Positions 1 to 22,892 of a stretch of DNA of 22,892 nt are shown here, piece after piece (positions within the stretch are counted from its first letter, which is position 1; each line of letters starts with the position of its first letter). Below the pieces are notes generated by a model. The model saw only the letters and a program-made list of their open reading frames with translations. It was not told the origin of the DNA and did not search any database. Origin of the DNA: a virus. The stretch spans positions 1-22,892 of the IMG/VR virus record IMGVR_UViG_3300031898_000276; one strand, 5' to 3'. A program made the translations under genes and the position numbers.

Positions 1-1533
1 TCACTCATCTCGTTTAACCTTCGTGATCATGGAGGCTCCGGATTGAACGGGCTCCAGGATCTCCCTGTCGGCTCGCGCGCGATTTTTCCAAAATAGGTAG
101 ACTTTTGTTTGGGTTAGGAAGCTGAGGATGCGGAGCATTTTCCCTAATTTCTTAACGTCAGCTTCCTCCACGTGTTTGTAAAACTCTTTGTGGGTGTAGT
201 AGGCTTTGTGGCCCGACAATAAACGCTTGCGGTAGATCCCCACAGATTTTGAAAGCTCCTCAAGGACGGCTTTGACTTGACTAACCGCTCGAAGAGCCCT
301 TAACTGATGCATGTTGTACTTTTCTGAGGAAAGGAAAACAGGGTTAAAGCCAAGCTTTCTCAGTTTTTCTACGGCTTCAAGGATCGCTGGGTTGGGCTTG
401 CTTTCCAGGATCTTCCTCATTCCCGCTTTCTCTGCGAAGGGGTTGTACCTCGCCATGACAGCGATCATCTCCACATAAGGCTTTCCAACCAGGGGCAGGG
501 TTTCTTTGACCAGTTTGGTGCCGAGGCCTATAGTGCGGTATTTCGGGTGGACCACCACTCTGGCAATTGTGGTTAGGTCTCGATTCAGTTCCTGGATGGT
601 TAATTGTCTGCCAAACGCTTCTTTTCTGCCTTGACAGGCTATGCTTGGATACTTGTAGAGTATCACTCCGCAGAGTTCCTCACGCCGCTTCAGAACAAAC
701 ACTTTGTAGACCGCTGCTACTCCTTTGCTGTCTCGATAATGAAAGCCCGAGAGCCTCTGATAATCCTGGATGGACCCCTCTTCAACACGCATCTCCTTTA
801 ACAAACTACATCCAAATCTTCGCCATTGGTCAAAACTATTATCCGGTAAATATTTAACCTGGATCTCCCTGCCGAACCGTTTATGAATGTGTACCGTAGG
901 CGAGAGATCTTCAATTAGATCTGTGTGCGTTGTGGCCGCTATAACAGCCCTCCCAGAGTTCCTGGCAAGCTTCTGCACGTTAAACGCCACGATCTTAGCG
1001 GTATCTCGATCCAGCGTGGAGCAGAACTCGTCCATGATCCACCATTGAGCGCCGCTCTCAATCAGCTTCGCAACACGATAACGATACTTCTGACCGTCGC
1101 TCAGCTGATCATAGCGACGTACAAACAGGAAGGCGTCGTTGAGGCCTACCCGAGAGAGCAGCTCAAGGCCCTCTTCAAGGGTTTTGCCCACCGTGTCGAT
1201 TAACGGCTTATCTCGGTCCACTCGGATATCCGCCATGTCCACAGCTTCTGTTCCTAGGTCCTTCTTGAAGGCTTTCAACAGCACGGATTTGCCGGATCCG
1301 CTGTCTCCGGTGATAAGCACGATATCCGTGGGGCCGATTTTCAACTCCACGTTATCGTAAATCACGTGCTTCTGATACTGGTCCACGCCGAGCCCGAAGG
1401 CCTCAGCCACCTGAATCGTGCGAGGTGTTATGTCCGTCGCGGTCTTGTAGGAGAGGCTAATGATGAACTTGCCTTCCCTTCTATCGTAGACCCGAGCGTA
1501 CCTCTGAATCTCAAAATACTCTCTGCGCCTCAA
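1..1533 (-). CDS. ABC-type ATPase fused to a GNAT acyltransferase domain (COG2401-like)
   Basis: This is a 510-residue two-domain protein. The N-terminal ABC ATPase shows Walker A GDSGSGKS (76-83), a signature-like LSDGQ (144-148), Walker B WIMDE (166-169) with a following STLD D-loop, and an H-loop TTH (201-203). No membrane segments are seen, so it is not a transporter ATPase. The second half carries a GNAT core, with motif A in ARVVVHPKYRTIGLGTKLV (324-342) and a later NPFAEKAGM segment. The C-terminal 120 residues are helical and basic. The start is TTG, overlapping the terminase stop as TTGA, with GGTGAG 7 nt upstream, so the two genes are translationally coupled. The architecture matches the archaeal COG2401 family, whose biochemistry I do not know to be settled. 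The phage Mu DNA-modification protein Mom is also GNAT-related, so a role in modifying viral DNA around packaging is a plausible inference, not shown here. The domain calls are firm; the function is open. Confidence 0.85.
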   Translation of the reverse strand: MRRREYFEIQRYARVYDRREGKFIISLSYKTATDITPRTIQVAEAFGLGVDQYQKHVIYDNVELKIGPTDIVLITGDSGSGKSVLLKAFKKDLGTEAVDMADIRVDRDKPLIDTVGKTLEEGLELLSRVGLNDAFLFVRRYDQLSDGQKYRYRVAKLIESGAQWWIMDEFCSTLDRDTAKIVAFNVQKLARNSGRAVIAATTHTDLIEDLSPTVHIHKRFGREIQVKYLPDNSFDQWRRFGCSLLKEMRVEEGSIQDYQRLSGFHYRDSKGVAAVYKVFVLKRREELCGVILYKYPSIACQGRKEAFGRQLTIQELNRDLTTIARVVVHPKYRTIGLGTKLVKETLPLVGKPYVEMIAVMARYNPFAEKAGMRKILESKPNPAILEAVEKLRKLGFNPVFLSSEKYNMHQLRALRAVSQVKAVLEELSKSVGIYRKRLLSGHKAYYTHKEFYKHVEEADVKKLGKMLRILSFLTQTKVYLFWKNRARADREILEPVQSGASMITKVKRDE

Positions 1534-8200: not shown

Positions 8201-9713
8201 CGCCCTTCACGATAACCATGTTTCGAGCCTTCTTAGGGTCCCTCTGGAAGGCTCCGGCATGAACGTTTGTAGCCACGTCTAATGTTGCTTTTTGGTAAGG
8301 AGGCGTCACGAGGAAAAACCCAAGCCACTTAAAATAAAGGATGCCTTGACTACCCGTCTTGGAAATTAATAAATGAATGTTTTTGACGTTTTTATTTGCT
8401 CCCGTGATTATGGAGGTTAAATCCCATTCCTTCACCGTGTAGGACGTTGGAGCTGCTGTTAAGGCTTGAACCGTGTATTCTGCATCGTCCTCAGTTACAA
8501 CCTTCACGGAATATTGCGTTTCAGCGTCTGAGCCCTTCAACTCTAAAAGAAGCTTCTTAAAAACAGTTGAATCTACAGATATAAGCGTGACACGATATAG
8601 GGTTCCGGTTCCGCCTGTGGCTGCTGTCTTCATCTGAGCGATGTCGCCATCCGTTTCAAAACTATAAGCGGTACAAGCCCATCCTTTCTCCCAGCTGTCT
8701 TCCATCCAGCCAGCGTAGCGGAGAAAACGTTTGCCGAGAGGATACAGGCTGGCGTCTCTGTTGGGTTCAATGTTGAAACATAAATCGTATTCCTCAATCA
8801 TTTCCACAATCTTAGATAACGCTGGGTCATAGTCGCATTTTAGCGCCAACATCTTTTTTTGCACGTCTTTCACGCCGAAAGTGGTGAAGCCGAGAGCAGC
8901 TTGTTTTTCTGCTTGGTCTAAAATATCCTTTACAACATCGTCGATGTCTTCATCCTCGTAGCCTTCGGCGATGAAACGTTCATAAAGCAGCGCAGACCAG
9001 CCAAGCATGTTTAATGTTAAATAGTCTCTGCCGTACTGGAGGCTTTCCGGGTCGATGCTGTCAATATAACCTCCGAAAATCCTGTTGAAGTCTCCGTCTT
9101 TCTTGACCCAGAGATAGGCTTCGTCACGATAAGCAAACGTGTTCTTGTGCTGTCCATCATGATTATCGATTATGAATTGAAGAAAGTCAGTTCGATCATT
9201 TACGCCGCCTCTATACTGAGGAACATCAAAAACATCATCTAAATCCTCGGTAGAGTAAAATGGATTCGCTTTCGTAAACAAGATGAAATCCACATACATG
9301 CTGCCAACTATGGTCCCTGCGTTACCAAAAGTTAATCGGACTTCACCCACAGTCTTTCCTGCAGGCAACTGAAAAACATGAATCGTAAAATCGGTTTCAG
9401 TAAACTCGCAACCACCGATCCATTCTCCCAACACATCAAAAATCTCCACCCAAGTGCCTGTTACACCCACCAAGTTAGAAGTTTTCTTAGCCCGAAAAAC
9501 CACATAGGGATAATCATCGCTGTCAATGTTCAACCCTAAACGCTGAAGCACGTAATAATCGCTTGTAGGACCCTTAGTGAATTTAACAATGTCTCCGTCA
9601 CATTCAACGGACGCTCCCCATGTTTTTATCCAGTTAGGCAGAGTAGGGTCTGCGAACTCTTCTCTCCATATAGCAGGTTTACAAACAAGAAGCTGCACTT
9701 GAAGACTACTCAA
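5235..9713 (-). CDS. Tail hub / tail-associated adhesin with beta-sandwich insertions
   Basis: At 1492 residues this is the largest gene here. Residues 15-150 look like a carbohydrate-binding type beta sandwich. Residues 150-335 (for example DGDFNRIFGGYIDSIDPESL) resemble the first half of a siphovirus tail hub. Residues 1131-1245 (QAAADYFLSIL, LRAGDVAVVNVP, VVQEVVHAI) resemble the second half. Between them lie several predicted lectin or CBM-like beta domains, about 340-1130, apparently inserted into the hub. Three 18-residue MSISD repeats (1265-1312) lead to a final LamG-like sandwich (1313-1492). The start is TTG, about 11 nt after GAGGAG. It follows the tape measure, as hub genes do, with RNA element A between them. 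Probable roles are tail-tip structure and binding of host surface glycans or S-layer. The domain limits are estimates by eye. Confidence 0.8.
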   Translation of the reverse strand: MSSLQVQLLVCKPAIWREEFADPTLPNWIKTWGASVECDGDIVKFTKGPTSDYYVLQRLGLNIDSDDYPYVVFRAKKTSNLVGVTGTWVEIFDVLGEWIGGCEFTETDFTIHVFQLPAGKTVGEVRLTFGNAGTIVGSMYVDFILFTKANPFYSTEDLDDVFDVPQYRGGVNDRTDFLQFIIDNHDGQHKNTFAYRDEAYLWVKKDGDFNRIFGGYIDSIDPESLQYGRDYLTLNMLGWSALLYERFIAEGYEDEDIDDVVKDILDQAEKQAALGFTTFGVKDVQKKMLALKCDYDPALSKIVEMIEEYDLCFNIEPNRDASLYPLGKRFLRYAGWMEDSWEKGWACTAYSFETDGDIAQMKTAATGGTGTLYRVTLISVDSTVFKKLLLELKGSDAETQYSVKVVTEDDAEYTVQALTAAPTSYTVKEWDLTSIITGANKNVKNIHLLISKTGSQGILYFKWLGFFLVTPPYQKATLDVATNVHAGAFQRDPKKARNMVIVKGDKFSYNVPLDSDEWTKEPAPTVIEEDNVAFWSPEAWESGGAIAAPIISADTTEKKMGAQSTKLVVGAGSYKYWHVFHDYSPSQDWSLKNYVFLWWYGTGSGKKMRVSIQSGSSYLECHFYDSFSGWSSTPIVLNIRNPNVVNGDVLSILSNVTRVTIGSYDINVSGTFRFDEVILSTTRYAWGAEHCILTNDQDSKAGIYSLKAEFKTGVLNNFQRQSSGFILQDPFDTLDLTKYDKGAHGGGEGDTYVEAGELVNKIRQITSSYRRYIVTKDLKSLNGMVVESKIISEGLSGPTSNRLIFSVTHTMNGDPTATDHVQVYSFNDYSNQKSWAVQERDYPNDPVTHYNSGVVSDHTKVAKMIITENNVKVYLDDVLVCNATRILSFTEAYVYLYGSTGNSSFQYPKQDNLKIYKDIKIYVEGLSAGWKVELWSGTNASPIEKKAEATVPSGGTVAELNVLTLVFPFTGFFKVFKPDQTLDHTSPDYSDIWGGDRYLAKQTTSQIEHKVYFPRTKDLGINAVELKKLKFWFKHSSAEATETCRLILATNDDNYYYTDFQPVTKWKELFEFDVGWIENIQFEIVGSPNLKNLNYVCFLYPATSAVTSIMLDEFRFEGETEAWGIARDEESILDIGLQPEKIFSSYYKTQEDAQAAADYFLSILKQPPLVEGSIAHPWGLPQLRAGDVAVVNVPNENINSEEMVVQEVVHAIPPASTKFTTEINLAGLPHALTDPQKRLKEHIERLQKADVYAENVEVFMGPLKDFMSISDYVEVLWEVMVSDGMSISDLLQALIDVLASDSMSISDYLQARWIWDEFGNMNDWSVETGVWSADGVLHQTQTTTGGKWLKWTHGHLVSYIFEMKGKLIADYDGVWGNRFRRVDANNMYETELVYYAAGNKGVQYYRCVGGTWTQMAYVAKTVTYNTYYKLKTDQRNEGTGLRTKVWFEAETNPCINHLEDPRSHNDGDFLMFHAVQEAGGKADFDYCHMWTE
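5778..5921 (-). repeat. Three 54-bp (18-residue) in-frame repeats in the tail adhesin
   Basis: The core CGACATG, read on the plus strand, recurs at 5802, 5856 and 5910, an exact 54-bp period. Each unit encodes D-x-MSISD followed by a helical or strand segment (YVEVLWEVMVS, LLQALIDVLAS, YLQARW). The repeats link the hub part to the terminal LamG-like domain and look like a stalk or spacer. Copy number could change by slippage or recombination. Confidence 0.85.
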
Positions 9714-9734
9714 GGCTTAGAACTCTCCTCATGT

Positions 9735-9830
9735 TTGGAGTGGATAGAGGATCCAGTTGTGCTGAGGAGACAACGCCCTTCGGAGTCGAACCCAGAAATG
9801 AGGGACCTCTACCCATTTCCCCCTTAATCA
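9735..9830 (-). ncRNA. Structured RNA element A between tape measure and hub genes
   Basis: This lies in one of only two large gaps in the tail operon. Read on the minus strand, GGGG (9819-9822), an AAA bulge (9816-9818) and TGGGTAGAGG (9806-9815) pair with CCTCTATCCA (9741-9750) and CTCC (9737-9740). TCC/GGA (9803-9805 with 9752-9754) extends the stem after one bulged base. An inner hairpin GTTGT/ACAAC (9770-9774 with 9756-9760) sits in the apical region, which also contains a tRNA T-loop-like GGTTCGACTCC. The helix is followed by AAACATGAGGAG, the ribosome site of the hub gene. Element B at 15562-15660 shares the helix, bulge and flanks. It could be a cis-regulatory leader, a processing site or a stabilising hairpin. 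The structure is supported by two-copy comparison only. Confidence 0.65.
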
Positions 9831-12112
9831 AGTCCCTGCCTCCTCTCCTCTTGAGCCACGTACCTGGCTAGTTTCCGAGCGGTTTCACGGATATCCATGT
9901 CGCTGCTGAGAGCGACGTTGGCAATATTGATGATTATATCCCCAAATCCCCTACCGTAGCCTCTTCGCCAACTCTCCGCTTGTTGCTCCGTCAAGATGGC
10001 TTCTCCTCGGTGAAGCATGGCTAAATAGCCCGTATAGGGGACATATTCTAATCCCATTTGCCGTATTGAAGGCGGTAAAGACGGTGGCGTTTTATAAGGC
10101 TCCTGCGTTGTTTTGGTTGTTGTTCCAGTCGCTGCCGTCGTCCCTGTGTAGTACGGTATTCTTTCTCCACCCTCAGTCACATAACGCGTCACGTATGTAG
10201 TTGTAATCGTAATTTCTTTTCCTCGAAGCTTATCAATCTCCGCTTGGATGGCGGCGAGGGCTGTGGCAATATCACCTTCAGCTCCCTTGAGGCAAATTTC
10301 CCACAATGCAACGATGTCTTCCCATTTACCGCCGCTCAAAGACTGCAGTGTTGTGAGACTGGACATGATGGTGCTTATTTCCGCATCCATATAGCCCTGC
10401 GTTTCCAGCTGCATCCTGAAAAGAATTTGAGCTTTCCACTCTTTCAACTGCTCAATCCTGGCAAGGTACTCGTCACGCATCTCTTCGGCTCGTTGAATCA
10501 TGAGGCCCCGTTCTTCACCGCTTAACTCATCCGCGGCTGCTAACATCTTTTCGTATTCGCTTTCCATCTCTGTGGTGAGACTTTCAATAGCGGAGTCAAT
10601 TTCCTCCGTCATCTTCCACATCTTGTCGGGTTCAGCTTCTTTGAACTGATCCATCAAAGCCTGAGCCTCGCCAAGCAGTCCATGACTAATCAATTCGTTG
10701 ACGGAAGAAACCAGGTCCTCCATTGCATCTCTAACGTCTTCCCTTGTCGCCGTGCTTTTCTCACCCATACACTCCTTGAACCGTTCCATGGCAGCCTGAG
10801 CCTTACCAACAAGCTCTTCCTCCAGGGTTGGTGCAACGGTTCCTACAGTAGCCTTAATCTCTTCAACCGCATCCATCACGATGGATTCTGCTTCATTCCA
10901 TGTGAGACCCCAGCGATCAGCGAACTCTTGAATCATGTCTCTCGCAGACGTGAAGTCGGGTTCCATACCTGACAAAGCTTCATAAACAGCTTGCCCCATC
11001 CCTTGCAGATCAACTTGGAAGCCTTCGCTTTCCTCAGTGAATATGCCAAAGAAAGAATCTTTAATGGCACCGATTTCTTCTTCCAGTGTCCCTCGTATGC
11101 TCGCCACTTTTTGCATTACGATTTTTTCCGCTTCATCCCATGTTAAGCCCCATTCATCGGCGAAAGCTTGTATGATTACCGAAACCGACCCAAAGGCGGG
11201 TTCGATGCCGGATAGAAAATCTTCCACAAGTTTAGCGGTTGTTGTTAAGTCATCTTGAAACTCTTTAGTTTCTACGGTAAAGACATCAAAAAATGACTTC
11301 TCTACCTTGTCTGCACCAGTAACAAAGACTTCTGTGAGTTCATCAACTTGCTTCTGCACATCGGGTAAGGCGTCTTCTATCCCCTTTAACTGGGCATCTA
11401 AACTTTCAAAGACTTTCGCCGACCTCAAAGTTTCCTCTTGAAGTTTTTCCTCTGCATCCGAAACGTCGTACAAGTATTCAGCAAGTTTTTCAAAGGCGAA
11501 ATACATCGCACCCGTCGCAGCCGCCGCGATACCGATAACTCCAGCGGCAGCCACGGTTGTTGTTGCAAGAGACGCTTGGCCTGCAGCCACCGCATCAATG
11601 GAAATCTTTAATTGGTCATAAGCGACCTTCCCTCGGTCAACCATCGTTATCATGCTGGGGATTACGAAAGTGACAGCCCTCAATATCGCTTCGTTGTAAT
11701 TGTTTTGTGCATAGGTTAAACGTTCTTGGATTACCGCAACATCTTTGGATGCTGCGTCGTAGGCCTCCTGAGCCTTTGCTGCCTCTTGACTGTTAGCGCC
11801 GTGTTTAGCGATTGCCTCATTTAGTTTGTCAAGAGCGTTGTTTTGACGTCTTTGAGCATCCTCCAGCGAGTTGGTGAGCCGCATCACCATAATCTGCTGT
11901 TTGTACACCGATTCATACATGGCGTACAAAGCAAAACCAGCAGTGATGACTCCGCTGATGCTCGTTGCCGCGTCTTTCCAGCTAACCCGAATCTTTCTGC
12001 TTTCCTGCTCCACCGTGTTCGCATAGTTTTTAACGTTTAACCCAGCTGACGCTAAACCTTCCTTGGTCTGATCTATCATTGACAAAATTATTTTTACTTC
12101 TGGACTGGACAT
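9824..12112 (-). CDS. Tail tape measure protein
   Basis: This 762-residue protein sets tail length and is threaded through the tail tube. It has long helical and coiled-coil stretches (about 80-140, 220-265, 430-620) and hydrophobic segments near 50-66 and 172-205 (Ala/Val/Gly-rich, ending GAMYFAF). Such segments are usual in tape measures and are thought to insert in the host membrane. Residues 263-422 hold an 80-residue tandem duplication. The C-terminal region (about 660-762) is more globular. The ATG shares one base with the TAA of the upstream chaperone ORF (TAATG). It lies between the chaperone pair and the tail hub, the canonical siphovirus position. Confidence 0.9.
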   Translation of the reverse strand: MSSPEVKIILSMIDQTKEGLASAGLNVKNYANTVEQESRKIRVSWKDAATSISGVITAGFALYAMYESVYKQQIMVMRLTNSLEDAQRRQNNALDKLNEAIAKHGANSQEAAKAQEAYDAASKDVAVIQERLTYAQNNYNEAILRAVTFVIPSMITMVDRGKVAYDQLKISIDAVAAGQASLATTTVAAAGVIGIAAAATGAMYFAFEKLAEYLYDVSDAEEKLQEETLRSAKVFESLDAQLKGIEDALPDVQKQVDELTEVFVTGADKVEKSFFDVFTVETKEFQDDLTTTAKLVEDFLSGIEPAFGSVSVIIQAFADEWGLTWDEAEKIVMQKVASIRGTLEEEIGAIKDSFFGIFTEESEGFQVDLQGMGQAVYEALSGMEPDFTSARDMIQEFADRWGLTWNEAESIVMDAVEEIKATVGTVAPTLEEELVGKAQAAMERFKECMGEKSTATREDVRDAMEDLVSSVNELISHGLLGEAQALMDQFKEAEPDKMWKMTEEIDSAIESLTTEMESEYEKMLAAADELSGEERGLMIQRAEEMRDEYLARIEQLKEWKAQILFRMQLETQGYMDAEISTIMSSLTTLQSLSGGKWEDIVALWEICLKGAEGDIATALAAIQAEIDKLRGKEITITTTYVTRYVTEGGERIPYYTGTTAATGTTTKTTQEPYKTPPSLPPSIRQMGLEYVPYTGYLAMLHRGEAILTEQQAESWRRGYGRGFGDIIINIANVALSSDMDIRETARKLARYVAQEERRQGLD
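10847..11326 (-). repeat. 80-residue tandem duplication inside the tape measure
   Basis: Two consecutive units share SFFxxFTxExxxFQxDL, a SG(I/M)EPxF segment and the anchor FAD(E/R)WGLTW(D/N)EAExIVM. The anchors WGLTW at residues 321 and 401 are 80 residues apart, as are the SFF anchors at 273 and 353. The DNA copies have diverged, so the duplication is old. Because tape-measure length determines tail length, this duplication would lengthen the tail. Confidence 0.85.
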
Positions 12113-12363
12113 TATGAATACATCTCCTTTTTCTTCATCTCCATTAACGCCCTTTGTCTAAGGATCTCCGCGCTTACGGAGCCGTCAAGCTCAGGAATCT
12201 CCGGCTTACTCAAGTCTCGTGTTGCCGCAAACTCAGCGTCGAAAAGTAGTCTTTCCCACCTCGTTTTCAAATGCTTACAACCTGGGTCCAATAGGTCACT
12301 TGGTCTCTGGTGATAGGTTTCCGCTACGAGGTCTACGATTCCTCTTAGCTTTGAGCAGGCCAC
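12112..12363 (-). CDS. Tail assembly chaperone, second (T-like) part, probably expressed by frameshift
   Basis: This 83-codon frame overlaps the end of the upstream chaperone ORF by 68 nt, in the +1 frame, and ends one base inside the tape-measure start. Its sequence (YHQRPSDLLDP and then FDAEFAA) resembles the second domain of siphovirus chaperones, in which a PSxLL motif and an FD motif recur. A GTG at 12363 could serve as an independent start, but no ribosome site lies at the right distance (GGGAGG is about 27 nt upstream). A frameshift product of about 222 residues with the upstream ORF is therefore more likely. The chaperone should coat the tape measure during tail assembly. Confidence 0.75.
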   Translation of the reverse strand: MACSKLRGIVDLVAETYHQRPSDLLDPGCKHLKTRWERLLFDAEFAATRDLSKPEIPELDGSVSAEILRQRALMEMKKKEMYS

Positions 12364-12781
12364 GAAATTTTCTTAGTTCACTCGCCCTCCCAGCGAAACC
12401 CACATGGTTCATGGCGTGACTGACCAGAAATCTTCGGTCAGAGATCTTGATCTCATCGAACCCTAACTCGTCACTGTTGTTTGGTTTTCCCTCAACAATT
12501 TTAGGCTTTACAACGATGTTGGAAAGAAGCTTGATCTGGGCTTTACGTTCATCCTCTTTAATGGCTTTGGTGGATTCCTTCGTGATCTCCTCTAGGCTGC
12601 GACGTTCATACTCCGCCTTTTTGTCTTCGTCAATGTGGAGAAGTAGGTGTTCAATCGGATCCAGGTAGGCCATCTCTACTTTCAATCCGCTTGGACACAC
12701 CACTTCCTCAGGCTTCCAAAGTTTCCGGTATTCTTCAGCAGAAGCAACAGGTTTATCCTCGGACTCCTCAGCCAAAGGCAT
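12296..12781 (-). CDS. Tail assembly chaperone, first (G-like) part
   Basis: This 161-residue protein is charged and mostly helical. Its C-terminal pattern (DELGFDEIKISDRRFLVSHA...ELRKF) is typical of the G part of tail chaperones, which usually ends in a Phe-containing segment just before the slippery site. It lies between the tail tube and the tape measure, as lambda G/GT does. The ATG follows directly after the amber stop of the upstream RHH-like ORF, in the same frame, with GAGGGAT as ribosome site. The last 22 codons overlap the second ORF and are Arg-rich, which is unlike the rest and fits a segment used only in the unshifted product. Confidence 0.8.
   Translation of the reverse strand: MPLAEESEDKPVASAEEYRKLWKPEEVVCPSGLKVEMAYLDPIEHLLLHIDEDKKAEYERRSLEEITKESTKAIKEDERKAQIKLLSNIVVKPKIVEGKPNNSDELGFDEIKISDRRFLVSHAMNHVGFAGRASELRKFRGLLKAKRNRRPRSGNLSPETK
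12362..12367 (-). promoter_or_regulatory. Candidate +1 programmed frameshift site UUU-CGU
   Basis: Codons 139-140 of the first chaperone ORF are TTT CGT. Slippage of the UUU-decoding tRNA to UUC gives TTC GTG and enters the second ORF. That ORF's frame is open only from a TAA 12 nt upstream of the TTC position, so the site falls at the very start of the permitted window. The same UUU-CGU heptamer core is known from the +1 shift of influenza PA-X. Whether it works in this host is not shown. Confidence 0.5.
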
Positions 12782-12967
12782 CTATCCCTCTTTAGCTGCC
12801 TTGTTCTTCTTGTACAGCAACTCGATGGCTTCTGAGATGACTTGGCTCTCGCTTACCGCTTTCTCGGGGAATCCTCTTTTCTTCATGATCTCGCAGAGTT
12901 TCTCGAAGATCTCTGCGGAAAGGGTTATCTCACGAGTTGACACTTCTTTCACCCTCTTATGAAGCAT
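12782..12967 (-). CDS. Small ribbon-helix-helix-like protein in the tail module
   Basis: This protein of at most 61 residues has an RHH-like pattern: a short strand (STREITLS), helix A (AEIFEKLCEIMKKRG) and helix B (SESQVISEAIELLYKK). RHH proteins bind operators as dimers. The ATG at 12967 overlaps the tail-tube stop but has no ribosome site. A GTG at 12946 preceded by GGGTGA is better placed and gives 54 residues. It ends in TAG immediately before the in-frame ATG of the chaperone ORF, so the two are separated by a single amber codon. It may be a regulator of late genes or a small tail protein that only resembles RHH. The fold call is moderate. Confidence 0.6.
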   Translation of the reverse strand: MLHKRVKEVSTREITLSAEIFEKLCEIMKKRGFPEKAVSESQVISEAIELLYKKNKAAKEG

Positions 12968-13964
12968 CTGGATATCCGGTGTCCGCGTTTGTTAGCTCCA
13001 CCTGAATCTCCGTTTCGTTTGCTACTACGGTCCCTTTTTCGCATTGAAAGTCTACGCGAAACATTTTGCGTTCTTGCCGCTCGATCCTGATTGGGGCTCC
13101 TGTGATCACGCATTTGGGTAGTATGAAGTCCAAGCGATACTTGTACGTGTCCACGATCACTATGCCCGTGTCAATGAGTAACTCTAGCTTGAAGGGTACC
13201 ACGGGTTCACCTGGTTCCACTGCTGCCGCATCTTTCAAGAATCGCTGGTAAACATCGAGGGTTCCGCTAAGCAGAGGCAAATCCATGCTTCCTGTGACGA
13301 CGCGTTCAGCTAACTCTATGCGGGTCAGTTTCCTGCTGCCTAAGACTCCGATGTCTCCCACACCGAAAACTCTTGGGGCAATATTGATTCTGAAGGCTTC
13401 CACAAGGTTCGCTAACTCGACATCGGCCAGTTCCACTTTGCTTTGATACGGCTTAAACGGGGCTAAGGCACTCCAGCCTGAAGAAGACTGCACGGTTTCA
13501 AGTTTCTCAGTTTGCCCAATAGCGCTTATGTCTGCGATCAACGGTGTTACTCCTCTTGCAATGCTAAAGCTGAGTCCAGACATGATGCAGCCTGGAACCC
13601 GCTTCTCCTTTATGGCGTCCCAGTTATAGCCCAAGGCGAAGCTTCGAACGGTTTCCGCCACCTTAAACGTGTGCTTGTACGCTGTGGTGGCGCCTTGCTG
13701 AGCTGATGTGACGCTTCCAAGAATCCATTTCAGAAACCAACCGATCATGTTGTCGGGTTTCACATCCATGTTCACGGTGACGGCTTCCTGCAAGTAGCCC
13801 TCACGATGCTCCAGTATGCTTCGACCTCTGATGCTTACGGGAAATGCTAGTCCAGGGTTTAAGGCGGTTTCGCAGAAGTTTGCAGCAAAGAACTTGTTTG
13901 GCACAACAGGCGTCGCTGGTGCATAGCTGACTTCTTCCGCAACGGCAACATATCTTTCAGGCAT
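12957..13964 (-). CDS. Major tail tube protein
   Basis: This 335-residue beta-rich protein opens with an RYVAVAEEVSYAPATP segment and has FLKWILGSVTS and AYKHTFKV stretches. These match the large tail tube proteins of siphoviruses, which stack as hexamers around the tape measure. Its length allows an extra C-terminal or inserted domain beyond a minimal tube protein of about 150-200 residues. The start is ATG 13964, with AGGAGG 12 nt upstream, a long spacing. It lies between the tail terminator candidate and the chaperone pair, as expected. The 41-bp gap upstream holds two overlapping small hairpins (CATAG/CTATG and CACGC/GCGTG) on the minus strand. Confidence 0.85.
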   Translation of the reverse strand: MPERYVAVAEEVSYAPATPVVPNKFFAANFCETALNPGLAFPVSIRGRSILEHREGYLQEAVTVNMDVKPDNMIGWFLKWILGSVTSAQQGATTAYKHTFKVAETVRSFALGYNWDAIKEKRVPGCIMSGLSFSIARGVTPLIADISAIGQTEKLETVQSSSGWSALAPFKPYQSKVELADVELANLVEAFRINIAPRVFGVGDIGVLGSRKLTRIELAERVVTGSMDLPLLSGTLDVYQRFLKDAAAVEPGEPVVPFKLELLIDTGIVIVDTYKYRLDFILPKCVITGAPIRIERQERKMFRVDFQCEKGTVVANETEIQVELTNADTGYPDAS

Positions 13965-14005
13965 TTTCTAATCATTCCTCCTATTTTTTTGCACGCATAG
14001 CGTGA

Positions 14006-14428
14006 CTATGATGGATAGATTTCTTTGTCAACGCGAAGCCGGCTTACCATCATGTCAAAAGCGTAGTCGGCCTCGCGGCCAGGAATGAACATGTAACCGA
14101 TAAGATGACTCTCCGAAACCAGCCCATCCCAGTTTTCGTTTGCCTTAAAAACTTGCCAAACAATCTCGGTTTTGTCGTGGACCCATTGATCGCAAACTTT
14201 CTCGTCGATGTGACGATAGGCAAGACCAACCACAATACTCATGATGTGGCGGTCTCCTCGCATGAGAGGCTCCACTCTTTGCTCTTCCAAAGGAGCCAGA
14301 CTTACGTATCCCTCGCCTTTGTCTGCTCTACCCCATTTTATTGGTTCGCCATAATGCCAAGTGACACCGGCTAGGTCGGCTTCAGCTTGAAGTTTCTCAA
14401 TTATTTTATTAAGCAAATCTTTGATCAA
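14006..14428 (-). CDS. Tail terminator / tail completion candidate
   Basis: This 140-residue alpha/beta protein begins with a helix (LLNKIIEKLQAEADL) and continues with strands and an HIMSIVVGLAYRH strand. This is the usual look of tail terminator proteins (gpU/HK97 gp11 type), which cap the finished tube and join it to the head. The gene sits between the gp10-like protein and the tail tube, the standard position. The start is TTG with GGAGG 7 nt upstream, overlapping the previous stop as TTGA. It ends in TAG. The sequence alone is not diagnostic, and the call leans on order and size. Confidence 0.65.
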   Translation of the reverse strand: MIKDLLNKIIEKLQAEADLAGVTWHYGEPIKWGRADKGEGYVSLAPLEEQRVEPLMRGDRHIMSIVVGLAYRHIDEKVCDQWVHDKTEIVWQVFKANENWDGLVSESHLIGYMFIPGREADYAFDMMVSRLRVDKEIYPS

Positions 14429-14862
14429 CGTAAAACCTCCTTAAGCGCTGCAGCCATCATGTCCGCAGCTATGGTTCTCACTTTTTCGCGAGTTCGTGCA
14501 ATGAAGGGATTTGGCTGCGTGCCAGGATGCATAACTCTGCGGAAAAAGACGGGGGCGCCTCGCCAAACAAAATGTAAAGCCCGTGCGCGACGAGCCACGA
14601 TTTCATGTGGCCTTGTTCCCCGCACCACATAAACAGCATAGGGAACTGTTGGAGCAATAACGTAAGCGTCTCCCTCTTTCGTCACAGTGATAGAACGTGC
14701 AAGGTCCCCTGTTCTATGTGGCGCCTCTATAACCATAATCGCTTGGCCGACGGTAGCCAGATCTTGTAAGCCCTTATCCTTTGCACACTTTATTGCCCAG
14801 GGAAAAAAATCGGCGAAATAAGACCCAAGCCGCGTCATGTCAATTCTAACAGTAAAACTCAT
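14425..14862 (-). CDS. HK97 gp10-like neck / tail completion protein
   Basis: This 145-residue protein has the family hallmarks: a helical N-terminus, APHRTGDLARSITV (about 49-62), then VPYAVYVVRGTRPHEI and an RRVMHPGTQPNPFIARTREK segment near the C-terminus, with a final helix. These P-x-RTG-L and HPG-x-x-x-x-PF motifs are typical of HK97 gp10-type proteins at the head-tail interface. The ATG lies 2 nt after the TAA of the membrane-anchored gene upstream, and its own stop overlaps the next TTG start. The motifs and context agree well. Confidence 0.85.
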   Translation of the reverse strand: MSFTVRIDMTRLGSYFADFFPWAIKCAKDKGLQDLATVGQAIMVIEAPHRTGDLARSITVTKEGDAYVIAPTVPYAVYVVRGTRPHEIVARRARALHFVWRGAPVFFRRVMHPGTQPNPFIARTREKVRTIAADMMAAALKEVLR

Positions 14863-14864
14863 GT

Positions 14865-15344
14865 TTATCCCTCTGCGGTTATCACAATGTCGAAGCTGAA
14901 GCTGGTGATGCCGGTGCAGTTGGAGAAAATCGTTAACTGAAACTCTACACTGACTCCCGTTCCGACAGCAATTTGTGCCCCTTCATAGTTCCAGCTTAAG
15001 GCCATGTATTGCTCTGCCTCTGCCGGGTTCCAAACCTCGGTTGAAAGGGTTAAAAGCACAGGCACATCGCCCTCATTGCGAATGTAAACTGGTCGTTTAG
15101 CAGCGTCGCCAGGCATCAGGGTTCCCCAGTCGATCTCCGTCACTGATACGGCACAATCCGAGCCTGTGTAGACTCCTATCTTGACGGTTGGTGGTGGAGG
15201 CGGCGGTGGGGGCGGCTCAGGCTCAGGATACTCAACGCGGATTCTGCTGGTGATACGCCAAGAATAAAAGAGGGCCGCAGAAACCGCCGTCATAACCAAT
15301 GCGACAGCGATTAAAGGCAGAACTGTTCCCCTCGCCAGCCTCAT
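14865..15344 (-). CDS. Membrane-anchored beta-sandwich protein with polyproline linker
   Basis: This 159-residue protein has a basic start and one hydrophobic helix (about 8-28, VLPLIAVALVMTAVSAALFY). A linker with nine consecutive prolines follows (about 44-52), and then a beta-rich domain (55-159). That domain reads like an Ig-like archaeal surface protein (IDWGTLMPGDAAKRPVYIRNEGDVPVLL). The helix may be a signal anchor placing the domain outside the cell. It is unusual inside a neck-gene run: the start overlaps the previous stop as ATGA and the downstream neck gene follows at once, so it is cotranscribed with virion genes. It could be a surface-acting accessory, such as an exclusion or envelope-interaction protein, or a virion component. 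The family is not recognised. Confidence 0.75.
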   Translation of the reverse strand: MRLARGTVLPLIAVALVMTAVSAALFYSWRITSRIRVEYPEPEPPPPPPPPPTVKIGVYTGSDCAVSVTEIDWGTLMPGDAAKRPVYIRNEGDVPVLLTLSTEVWNPAEAEQYMALSWNYEGAQIAVGTGVSVEFQLTIFSNCTGITSFSFDIVITAEG

Positions 15345-15550
15345 GATTTCACTTCCTTCATGCGCTCGTTGATCCTCTCCATAACCAAGATTCGGCTTTG
15401 AATCGCGGTGAGGAAGTCTTCAAGCAGAATCTCCCGCTGAGGCTTTGGCAACCTTAAAAGTCTGTCACCTATCTGATCCCATAACTCATTCCATTTCTTT
15501 TTTAGATGAAATTCGGCGCCAAAATTTCTTAGAGGTGTTACTTCACTCAA
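15341..15550 (-). CDS. 69-residue helical protein
   Basis: This small helical protein has charged amphipathic segments (AEFHLKKKWNELWDQIGDRLLRL and PQREILLEDFLTAIQSRILVMERI). It starts at TTG 15550, with GGTGA 6 nt upstream at the end of RNA element B. An ATG 4 nt upstream is in another frame and closes after three codons. It is not recognised. Position after the connector suggests a small neck or assembly factor. Its translation may be controlled by element B, which ends at its ribosome site. Confidence 0.65.
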   Translation of the reverse strand: MSEVTPLRNFGAEFHLKKKWNELWDQIGDRLLRLPKPQREILLEDFLTAIQSRILVMERINERMKEVKS

Positions 15551-15561
15551 ACATGTTCACC

Positions 15562-15660
15562 TTTGTTTGGCGTGGATAGAATCCTCCTAAGTTGAGTGTG
15601 GAGAAACACGCCACCCTTGAAAAGGAGGGATAGAACTCTATCCATTTCGCCTCAATCATA
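15562..15660 (-). ncRNA. Structured RNA element B between connector and 69-residue gene
   Basis: On the minus strand GGCG (15648-15651), an AAA bulge and TGGATAGA (15637-15644) pair with TCTATCCA (15573-15580) and CGCC (15569-15572). ATCCCTCCT (15623-15631) pairs with AGGAGGAT (15581-15588) with one bulged base. A GTGT/ACAC hairpin lies in the apical part. A competing local hairpin GGATAG/CTATCC (15628-15643) uses the same strand as the long helix, so two folds are mutually exclusive. The helix is followed by AAACAAAGGTGA, the ribosome site of the next gene. Compared with element A, a C-G pair in the basal helix becomes G-U, so pairing is kept while sequence changes. Confidence 0.65.
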
Positions 15661-17772: not shown

Positions 17773-17810
17773 GTTTTGCTCACGTTAAATTTTATCCGAC
17801 TAAAATGGTT

Positions 17811-17828
17811 GGAGCATCCTCATGCTCC
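17811..17828 (-). terminator. Perfect hairpin between the two zinc-ribbon genes
   Basis: GGAGCAT and ATGCTCC form a perfect 7-bp stem with a GAGG loop, about 30 nt after the stop of the 47-residue gene. On the minus strand a short AACCATTTTAG follows, with only four T in a row. It may mark the 3' end of the capsid transcript or stabilise it. Archaeal terminators depend mainly on T tracts, so the terminator call is weak, while the hairpin itself is clear. Confidence 0.4.
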
Positions 17829-17857
17829 TGTTCATCGGTCTCCGGATCTTACTGGCT

Positions 17858-18001
17858 TCAGCCCCAGAAGGCTCGACCGCAACTATTGCAGTGATACTTC
17901 ATTTTCCCGCTGACTTTCGGCGGAGATTCAACGATGTCCTCGGAACCGCAGTAAGGGCATTTCACGGGTTTAAGGATCTTCTCCTTGAGGCCTTTGCTCA
18001 T
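17858..18001 (-). CDS. 47-residue zinc-ribbon protein next to the capsid gene
   Basis: This short gene runs from ATG 18001 to TGA 17858. It encodes a classic zinc ribbon, CPYC (15-18) and CNSC (38-41), with a basic N-terminal tail (SKGLKEKILKPVK). It begins 6 nt after the capsid stop, and GTGATCC just upstream can serve as ribosome site. Such minimal ribbons occur as transcription-factor-like or DNA-binding accessories. Being cotranscribed with the capsid gene, it could be made in late infection. It pairs by location with the 94-residue multi-ribbon protein. Confidence 0.75.
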   Translation of the reverse strand: MSKGLKEKILKPVKCPYCGSEDIVESPPKVSGKMKYHCNSCGRAFWG

Positions 18002-18007
18002 TTAGGA

Positions 18008-20990: not shown

Positions 20991-21401
20991 ATGGGAAAAA
21001 GAGGGCGCCCAAGACTACCTGATGAAGAAAGGAAAAAACGCAAAGCCAAACGTTATAGAGAATGGGCACAAAGGCACAAGGAACAAGTCAACCTGTATAT
21101 TAAGAGATACAATGAACGCCTACGACTTTCGGTTTTAAAAGTATACGGAAGGCCTAATCCGAAATGCTCTTGTTGTGGGGAATCAGAGCTTAAGTTCCTG
21201 GTCATTGATCATATTCAAGGAAAAGGGAATATCCACAGAAGATCGGTTGTTGGAAAGGGGGGAGGATATCAATTTTATCGATGGATAAAGAACAATAATT
21301 ACCCGAGCGGATTCCAGGTTCTTTGTCATAATTGCAATATGGCGAAAGCTCTTTATGGAATTTGCCCTCATGAAGAAAAACGCAAAAAAGAGGCGAATTA
21401 G
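20991..21401 (+). CDS. HNH endonuclease-like protein
   Basis: This 136-residue protein has a basic N-terminus with an AT-hook-like GKRGRPRLP (2-10). A zinc-containing HNH module follows, with a Cys cluster CSCCG (59-63), VIDHI (71-75, His74), and LCHNCN (111-116) with GICPH (123-127). The KGGGYQFYRWIKNNNYPSGFQVLCHNCN block is typical of free-standing HNH proteins in viruses. It may be a homing endonuclease or a packaging-associated nuclease. The gene is AT-rich and on the opposite strand to the head operon, unlike the GC-richer portal, which suggests separate acquisition. GGAGG lies 7 nt before the ATG. It ends in TAG. Confidence 0.85.
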   Translation: MGKRGRPRLPDEERKKRKAKRYREWAQRHKEQVNLYIKRYNERLRLSVLKVYGRPNPKCSCCGESELKFLVIDHIQGKGNIHRRSVVGKGGGYQFYRWIKNNNYPSGFQVLCHNCNMAKALYGICPHEEKRKKEAN

Positions 21402-21656: not shown

Positions 21657-22892
21657 ATGGCGTTTTTCCGAAAAGGCTGGAACCAACTGCGTGAAGCCTT
21701 GCGGCGAGGCGGAACACGCACCCTGCTGTCTGCTCACAGGACCGCCTACGGAGAACTGAAACCGGTCAGCTTCAGCGACGTGATGACAGCCTATCTCCGG
21801 GACCCCAGCTGCAAGGCCTTCGTTGACTTCCTCGCGGATCAAACGGTGGGCATGGGGTTCTACACCACGGTGAACCAAGAACATGAACAGGCTAAGGAGG
21901 CGAAAACAGTTGTCGACGAGTATAATAAATCCGTGAACCTTGACGGTTTGCTGCAGACCGGTGCCCGTGAAATTGTAGCAAGTGGAAACAGCTTCTGGCT
22001 GAAAACAAACGATGCGAAGCCCTTCGGCCTCAAGATCTTACCCCTCACCGGTTTTGATGACCCCAAGGCGGTTATGCGAGACTCTGCCGGCGACGTACAA
22101 GGATACAAATACAAGTTTAACGGCGTCGAGAAAGAGTTTAAACCCGAACAGATCATTCACTGGAAGTGGGGAGCCGTCAACTTCAGCGCCTTCGGAACCG
22201 GAGTCCTGCAGGTTCTGTTACAGGAGCTCAGCTTCAACGGCGAGAAACGCATGAGCATCCTAGAAATGAAGGCCCGCATCGAAGCCCGCATGATCGACGT
22301 CTTCGAGAAGTATGCTGGACCTGACGAGCTCTGGCTCTTCCCCGGAGTTTCTCCGGATCAGCTCTCCAAGTATCAGACATTGATCAAAGGCAAGCCTAAG
22401 GCGGGAGCTCGTTTTGTGTATGATAAGGCGGATGCGGACATCAAGACGGTTCAGGTGGATCCACGCGCTCGATACGAGGCCTACATCGAGCACATTCTAA
22501 ACCAGGTGTACCTCGGAGGACAAACACCTCTGCCGAAACTGTTCACCACACCAGGATTTACAGAGGCGAGTGCAAAGGCGGCGATTGAAATTGCGGAACG
22601 CAAGGTCATGGCTTTACAGAGGTTTATTAAAAGAATTGTTGAGCGGGAAGTCTTCACACCTGTTTTAGAGCAAGGGGGTTTTGATCCGAAGGAGGCGGAG
22701 TGTCGTTTGGAGTGGGGCATGCCTGAGGCATTGGATTATGAGAAGCTCGCGGCGATTCTGCCCCATCTTGTGGAGCTTCAACTCAATGCGGTGATCAGAA
22801 CAAGCGAGATCCGATCTATCCTACGAGATGTCTGTAAGCTGCCCCTGGCAGAAATCGAACGGCAAGAAGCCGTTGAGAAAACAGCGAAATAA
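21657..22892 (+). CDS. Portal protein
   Basis: This 411-residue protein forms the dodecameric DNA gate at the head vertex. Features seen are an N-terminal segment VMTAYLRDPSCKAFVDFLADQTVGMGFY, a GAREIVASGNSFW core motif, an LKILPLTGFDD wing and the typical EQIIHWKWGAVNFSAFGTGVLQVLLQEL helix region. A stem/clip segment follows (FPGVSPDQLSKYQTL, VDPRARYEAYIEHILNQVYLGGQTP). The C-terminal crown helices end in LPLAEIERQEAVEKTAK. Length is at the short end for HK97/SPP1-type portals, but no motif is missing. Unusually it is on the plus strand, while protease, capsid and terminase are on the minus strand. Ribosome site AAGGAG is about 12 nt upstream. Confidence 0.9.
   Translation: MAFFRKGWNQLREALRRGGTRTLLSAHRTAYGELKPVSFSDVMTAYLRDPSCKAFVDFLADQTVGMGFYTTVNQEHEQAKEAKTVVDEYNKSVNLDGLLQTGAREIVASGNSFWLKTNDAKPFGLKILPLTGFDDPKAVMRDSAGDVQGYKYKFNGVEKEFKPEQIIHWKWGAVNFSAFGTGVLQVLLQELSFNGEKRMSILEMKARIEARMIDVFEKYAGPDELWLFPGVSPDQLSKYQTLIKGKPKAGARFVYDKADADIKTVQVDPRARYEAYIEHILNQVYLGGQTPLPKLFTTPGFTEASAKAAIEIAERKVMALQRFIKRIVEREVFTPVLEQGGFDPKEAECRLEWGMPEALDYEKLAAILPHLVELQLNAVIRTSEIRSILRDVCKLPLAEIERQEAVEKTAK

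Follow-up and report, generated by a model that had tools for sequence, protein, structure and literature searches.

A candidate portable RNA spacer with an open frame at two stop/start overlaps in the neck and tail operon of a probably archaeal virus

Gene order of the virus record

The window, i.e. the whole stretch of DNA that has been analysed, is one entire IMG/VR virus record (IMGVR_UViG_3300031898_000276) of 22,892 nt, whose minus strand codes for the terminase, a tail protein, the tape measure, the tail tube, neck proteins and an HK97-type capsid protein. An archaeal host is probable, because the terminase has its top match in Halogranum tailed virus 1 and the integrase of a related virus, L003, matches archaeal viruses only. 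Two stretches, A, located between the tape measure and the tail protein, and B, located between a gp36-like adaptor and an ORF of 69 aa, are the widest spaces of the neck/tail block. The first-pass annotation had described them as the exceptional gaps of the tail operon, followed in both cases by a gene that begins with TTG AGT; both descriptions hold, as the next widest space measures only 41 nt (13965-14005) and TTG AGT is read at both starts.

Additional features of this virus group lie outside the two stretches. The portal gene (21657-22892, plus strand), preceded by an HNH-like ORF (20991-21401), is located on the strand opposite to the terminase and the capsid, and the head module is therefore split. 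An ABC-type ATPase fused to an acetyltransferase-like domain (1-1533, minus strand) adjoins the terminase and is similar to proteins of ~110-kb Pseudomonas, Klebsiella and Stenotrophomonas phages. Two frames just ahead of the tape measure (12112-12781, minus strand) overlap by 68 nt, at the usual site of the frameshift-made tail-assembly chaperone pair. The space between the capsid gene and p94 holds an apparent unlisted, short, zinc-finger-like frame (17773-18007, minus strand; MSKGLKEKILKPVKCPYCGSED...), which is conserved in the related viruses L002, L004 and L028. The tape-measure protein of L003 contains an intein-like (Hint) stretch (~13381-13841; CFLSRTKISMLDGSKKSIENL...VDGEHNYFAEGVLVHNKPW), which coincides with an interruption of the tape-measure match between the window and L003.

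Conserved parts of elements A and B

Both elements comprise the same succession of parts: a 4-bp helix (P1), an AAA bulge, a 10-bp helix (P2) and AAACA, located ahead of a Shine-Dalgarno site. Their common skeleton reads GGNG, AAA, UGGRUAGAGN, a variable middle of 50-60 nt, NYUCUAUCCA, CNCC and AAACA. Each element is also crossed by a small open frame (mini-ORF), which overlaps the genes on both sides. The parts are the following:

9706-9831, minus strand: A as mini-ORF of 41 codons (TTG ATT AAG GGG ... GAG TAG)
9824-9831, minus strand: overlap of the A mini-ORF with the tape-measure stop, 8 nt
9706-9713, minus strand: overlap of the A mini-ORF with the tail gene start, 8 nt
9732-9823, minus strand: structured core of A, covariance-model match of 71.9 bits
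9819-9822, minus strand: 5' strand of A helix P1, GGGG, pairing with CUCC at 9737-9740
9816-9818, minus strand: AAA bulge of A at the P1/P2 junction
9806-9815, minus strand: 5' strand of A helix P2, UGGGUAGAGG
9741-9750, minus strand: 3' strand of A helix P2, CCUCUAUCCA
9732-9740, minus strand: 3' strand of A helix P1, CUCC, with the conserved AAACA
9725-9730, minus strand: Shine-Dalgarno-like GAGGAG of A, read from the sequence, preceding the TTG start at 9713
15543-15659, minus strand: B as mini-ORF of 38 codons (ATG ATT GAG GCG ... GAG TGA)
15656-15659, minus strand: overlap of the B mini-ORF with the gp36-like stop, 4 nt, ATGA
15543-15550, minus strand: overlap of the B mini-ORF with the start of the 69-aa gene, 8 nt
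15564-15652, minus strand: structured core of B, covariance-model match of 110.3 bits
15648-15651, minus strand: 5' strand of B helix P1, GGCG, pairing with CGCC at 15569-15572
15645-15647, minus strand: AAA bulge of B at the P1/P2 junction
15635-15644, minus strand: 5' strand of B helix P2, UGGAUAGAGU; P2 reaches 13 bp in window B
15573-15582, minus strand: 3' strand of B helix P2, AUUCUAUCCA
15564-15572, minus strand: 3' strand of B helix P1, CGCC, with the conserved AAACA
15557-15563, minus strand: Shine-Dalgarno-like AAGGTGA of B, read from the sequence, preceding the TTG start at 15550
15341-15550, minus strand: 69-aa ORF downstream of B

A and B have the two outer helices and the A-rich bulges in common, and the middle varies; of the common fold that had been proposed, the outer part stands, while the apical hairpins are not shared by the two elements.

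Copies in related viruses

Six related viruses, which come from two metagenomes, have been gathered by searches with the tail tube and the ORFs. The covariance model made from the known elements recognises exactly six copies, distributed over five related viruses of two metagenomes: the window has both A and B, L003 has A, and L002, L004 and L005 have B; the scores are 71.9-112.1 bits. The next score, 19.8 bits, comes from an unrelated bacterial genome, and all other loci searched remain below 20 bits; likewise, a structural descriptor run over 671 kb of loci returns the six true copies and nothing else. No more copies were found in IMG/VR and GTDB by exact and pattern scans followed by the covariance model on the returned loci. 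In Rfam 15 nothing came near the gathering threshold and permissive cut-offs gave chance matches only, in line with the earlier remark that no named RNA family is known to have this layout; blastn gave no match for B among phages or for A of L003 among plasmids. The element is known so far in one small virus group only.

Several weaker candidates have been set aside: the GTDB pattern matches L016-L019 belong to unrelated bacteria (at most 19.8 bits), the IMG/VR matches obtained with P2 left free are due to chance or to one unrelated sequence common to three contigs, and weak model matches in the gap between the capsid gene (MCP) and p94 sit in the apparent zinc-finger frame mentioned above.

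Homology and RNA pairing

Local alignment of the two window elements scores 36, against 28 for the best of 2000 dinucleotide shuffles, and that of A of L003 with B of the window scores 63, against 29 for the best of 2000; among 400 shuffles, 0-4 reproduce the layout of 4 bp, a 3-nt 5' bulge and 10 bp or more. By these comparisons A and B are homologous; the first-pass annotation had already called them related.

The 14 pairs of the two helices are standard pairs on the sense strand in all six copies (84/84 cells), compared with 77/84 cells on the reverse complement, where seven fail through the change of G.U to A.C; the sense RNA is therefore the paired form. Two pairs have changed on both sides across the six copies: C-G has become G-U in P1, and the last pair of P2 occurs as U-A, G-C or A-U. 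The P1 change is the one reported earlier, from C-G in B to G-U in A with the helix kept; in window A, it falls on two synonymous third positions of the mini-ORF and could therefore be coding drift. Among the B copies, none of the 11 variable sites lies within P1, P2, AAA or AAACA (chance ~0.009). The proposed search for homologues with compensatory changes has thus yielded four more copies, with every pair kept. The effective number of sequences in the covariance model is 1.69, and single-sequence folding energy is little better than that of shuffles for A (z -1.04) and moderate for B (z -2.75); in the predicted fold of A of L003 with its flanks, P1 and P2 are absent at 37 C and form at 60 C. 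Pairing is kept through sequence change on one strand, as in a structured cis-acting RNA, and sense-strand RNA pairing appears to be the conserved property, with support that is real but thin, the informative changes being few.

The open frame that spans each copy

An open frame of 37-41 codons runs through each of the six copies. At its start it shares 4 nt (ATGA, in B) or 8 nt (TTGATTAA, in A) with the stop of the upstream gene; at its stop it shares 8 nt (TTGAGTGA, TTGAGTAG) or 4 nt (TTGA, in L004) with the start of the downstream gene. Overlaps of -4, -1 or -8 nt, which are the commonest prokaryotic gene spacings (PMC10666635), are thus present at both ends of 6/6 copies, as well as at both kinds of empty site described below. 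The element had been thought to begin at a stop codon: the stop is there, but it belongs to a stop/start overlap, and the supposed gaps are ORFs with an overlap of 4 or 8 nt on either side.

The frame in which the conserved helices are read differs between A and B: small indels displace it there, and it is regained at the ends. Indels of 1, 2 and 4 nt shift the frame among A, B and B of L004 and the overlapping ends are kept; the L004 copy, which has a 1-nt insertion, is frameshifted and still ends in an overlap. By chance a frame would be open with a frequency of ~0.25 and ~2/3 of the frames would end in an overlapping stop, hence ~0.16 per independent configuration. Three independent open frames are suggestive of a joint constraint, by which the sequence would be both paired and open with overlapping ends.

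The peptides are not conserved between copies, and no peptide family match was found for the products. In gap-free blocks, A of the window and A of L003 differ by four synonymous and three non-synonymous codons, and their lengths change in multiples of three; among the B copies, the gap-free pair that has diverged most shows one synonymous and four non-synonymous changes. The combination of one frame and purifying selection that would mark a micropeptide gene is not seen.

Empty sites, linked ORF and history

Each site occurs without the element in some close relatives, and there the two flanking genes run directly into each other, with an overlap of 4 or 8 nt. Site A is empty in L002, L004 and L005, where the tape-measure stop and the tail start overlap within CTTGACTGA; site B is empty in L028 and L029, which are the full records of L012 and L014, and there the gp36-like stop and the start of the 69-aa ORF overlap in ATGA. 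The element is therefore an accessory module that is either present or absent.

The 69-aa ORF or a homologue follows five of the six copies. A 46-aa ORF follows element A in L003 and is a shortened homologue of the one after B (43 % over 28 residues, E 3e-6); this agrees, as do the empty sites, with the earlier suggestion of a small duplicated cassette; window A has no such ORF, and the 69-aa ORF occurs in L028 and L029 without the element. The ORFs linked to A and B share 35 % aa identity. All module borders are ATGA or TTGA; GCTTGA flanks the element in L003, and again the element together with its ORF, and CTTGA flanks window A. Border repeats (TTGA/GCTTGA) and inverted repeats are thus present, the former being also required by the overlapping codons.

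In the likeliest history, whose direction and mechanism we infer from these comparisons, the element would first have become linked to the 69-aa ORF at site B, and a copy of both would then have moved to site A, where the ORF later would have shrunk (L003) or vanished (window). The viruses of this group are mosaic. In L002 (~2370-2460), the gp36-like gene resembles that of L003 until ~45 bp before element B and is of the window type thereafter, which we read as a recombination break just upstream of the element.

Proposed relay of coupled translation

Termination-reinitiation coupling through stop/start overlaps is known from archaea and bacteria (PMC6728339, PMC10666635), and has been assumed for the operons of the archaeal tailed virus HFTV1 (PMC12542753). 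In tested Haloferax gene pairs a gap of ~22 nt abolished reinitiation (PMC10666635); an untranslated insert of 110 nt should therefore break the coupling, a break that the mini-ORF would avoid.

We tentatively favour, at somewhat less than even confidence, the reading that one portable, structured mRNA spacer of ~110 nt, acting in cis, is present in two copies, A and B, and carries a mini-cistron predicted to relay coupled translation. Its insertion would have occurred where stops and starts overlap in a late operon with coupled translation, and the mRNA would form a two-step hairpin, made of the 4-bp P1, the AAA bulge, the 10-bp P2 and a variable apical part, ahead of AAACA and the Shine-Dalgarno site. 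Ribosomes that finish the upstream gene would start again on the mini-cistron, pass through the hairpin and then start once more on the downstream gene, with AAACA and the Shine-Dalgarno site for this restart supplied by the element itself. Such a relay would keep the coupling, add a step and a structure, and most likely set the output of the downstream neck/tail gene, probably by lowering or delaying it; both the translation of the mini-ORF and its relay function are predictions from sequence, and the specific cis-regulatory, processing and stability roles suggested in the first-pass annotation stay conjectural. The arrangement resembles termination-reinitiation coupling in its 4- and 8-nt stop/start overlaps throughout and in the Shine-Dalgarno site before the restart, and differs from the ordinary case in that a structured mini-cistron is interposed between genes that overlap directly in relatives. 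It is rather doubtful, though conceivable, that the hairpin spacer is under joint selection to pair as RNA and to stay open with overlapping ends, and not for one peptide, and that it would represent a new type of regulatory module, exchanged among viruses, which inserts a translation step between coupled structural genes.

Alternative explanations

The main rival, which we consider unlikely, is a non-autonomous palindromic mobile DNA element, similar to MITEs or to the Rickettsia palindromic elements (RPEs), with the RNA structure as a by-product: the helix strands would be terminal inverted repeats for a transposase acting in trans, and target duplication would restore both codons. Two sites that are each filled in some relatives and empty in others, conserved ends around a variable middle, and the GCTTGA and CTTGA repeats would all be accounted for, and RPEs, which measure ~150 bp and are mostly in frame (PMC10969869), are similarly short imperfect palindromes of presence/absence type that keep the frame open on insertion. 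Unlike RPEs and MITEs, our element lies between genes and not inside them, has a very low copy number (at most two in any virus, and no others in IMG/VR or GTDB with the patterns used, where many copies would be expected) and pairs completely only as sense RNA, the G.U pairs suiting RNA but breaking a DNA palindrome. No transposase was seen, the TTGA repeats are expected anyway from the coding overlaps, and the A copy may derive from B along with the downstream ORF. A mobile palindrome is compatible with the translation relay; the two readings are not exclusive.

Three further readings are less likely than either of these. Translational operators and leader hairpins between phage cistrons place a hairpin near a Shine-Dalgarno site within a late operon, and so does the element, with conserved A-rich bulges directly ahead of that site; a viral structural protein, perhaps the 69-aa product, whose ORF or homologue follows most copies, could thus bind the bulged hairpin and repress the next gene. 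We find such a protein- or ligand-binding operator improbable: the ORF and the element occur without each other, the apical sequence varies, no Rfam relative or known operator sequence or fold is present, the Shine-Dalgarno site lies outside the conserved helices and the frame crosses the hairpin. Equally improbable is a genuine micropeptide gene, in which the likeness of the helices would reflect common ancestry and coding constraint; at both sites the module extends exactly from its own start codon to its own stop codon, and the A copies show the synonymous changes and the length changes in threes given above, yet the helices are read in different frames in A and B, the B copies show mainly non-synonymous changes, and neither the L004 frameshift nor the missing family match suits a conserved peptide. 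Slightly more improbable still is a functionless product of recombination, i.e. a fragment copied from one gene border to another through microhomology at TGA and young enough to seem conserved: the ATGA/TTGA borders and the mosaic genomes fit, but the helices of A and B are near-identical while the middle and the linked ORF have diverged strongly, and the B copies have no helix changes.

Known RNA and DNA signatures have also been compared with the element. The archaeal bulge-helix-bulge intron has 3-nt bulges 5' of a 4-bp central helix on both transcript strands; the two 3-nt A-rich stretches of the element flank a 4-bp helix too, but the sense bulges lie 3' of it, and the correct polarity occurs on the antisense only, where pairs are broken. 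A tRNA-like reading of GGGTTCGACTCC in A is rejected, as ARAGORN reports no tRNA and the motif is missing from B. By eye, there are no matching take-off and landing codons for ribosome bypassing (a bypass fusion is not expected either, since the empty sites hold two separate genes), the ends misfit the RYYYAAC...GTTRRRY of integron attC sites, and the tandem G.A that follows the bulge of a kink-turn is absent.

Significance

The unequal dosing of neck and tail proteins in viruses with fully overlapping late genes is poorly understood, especially in archaea, and two gene borders that each occur with and without the element offer matched alleles in which the effect of a structured spacer on coupled translation is directly testable. 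Selection for a sequence that is open in any frame and also paired would be an unusual constraint, and would warn that structured RNAs of ~100 nt which appear intergenic in phage operons can be translated. A removable insert of 110 bases may add a translation step between coupled genes while leaving their coupling unbroken.
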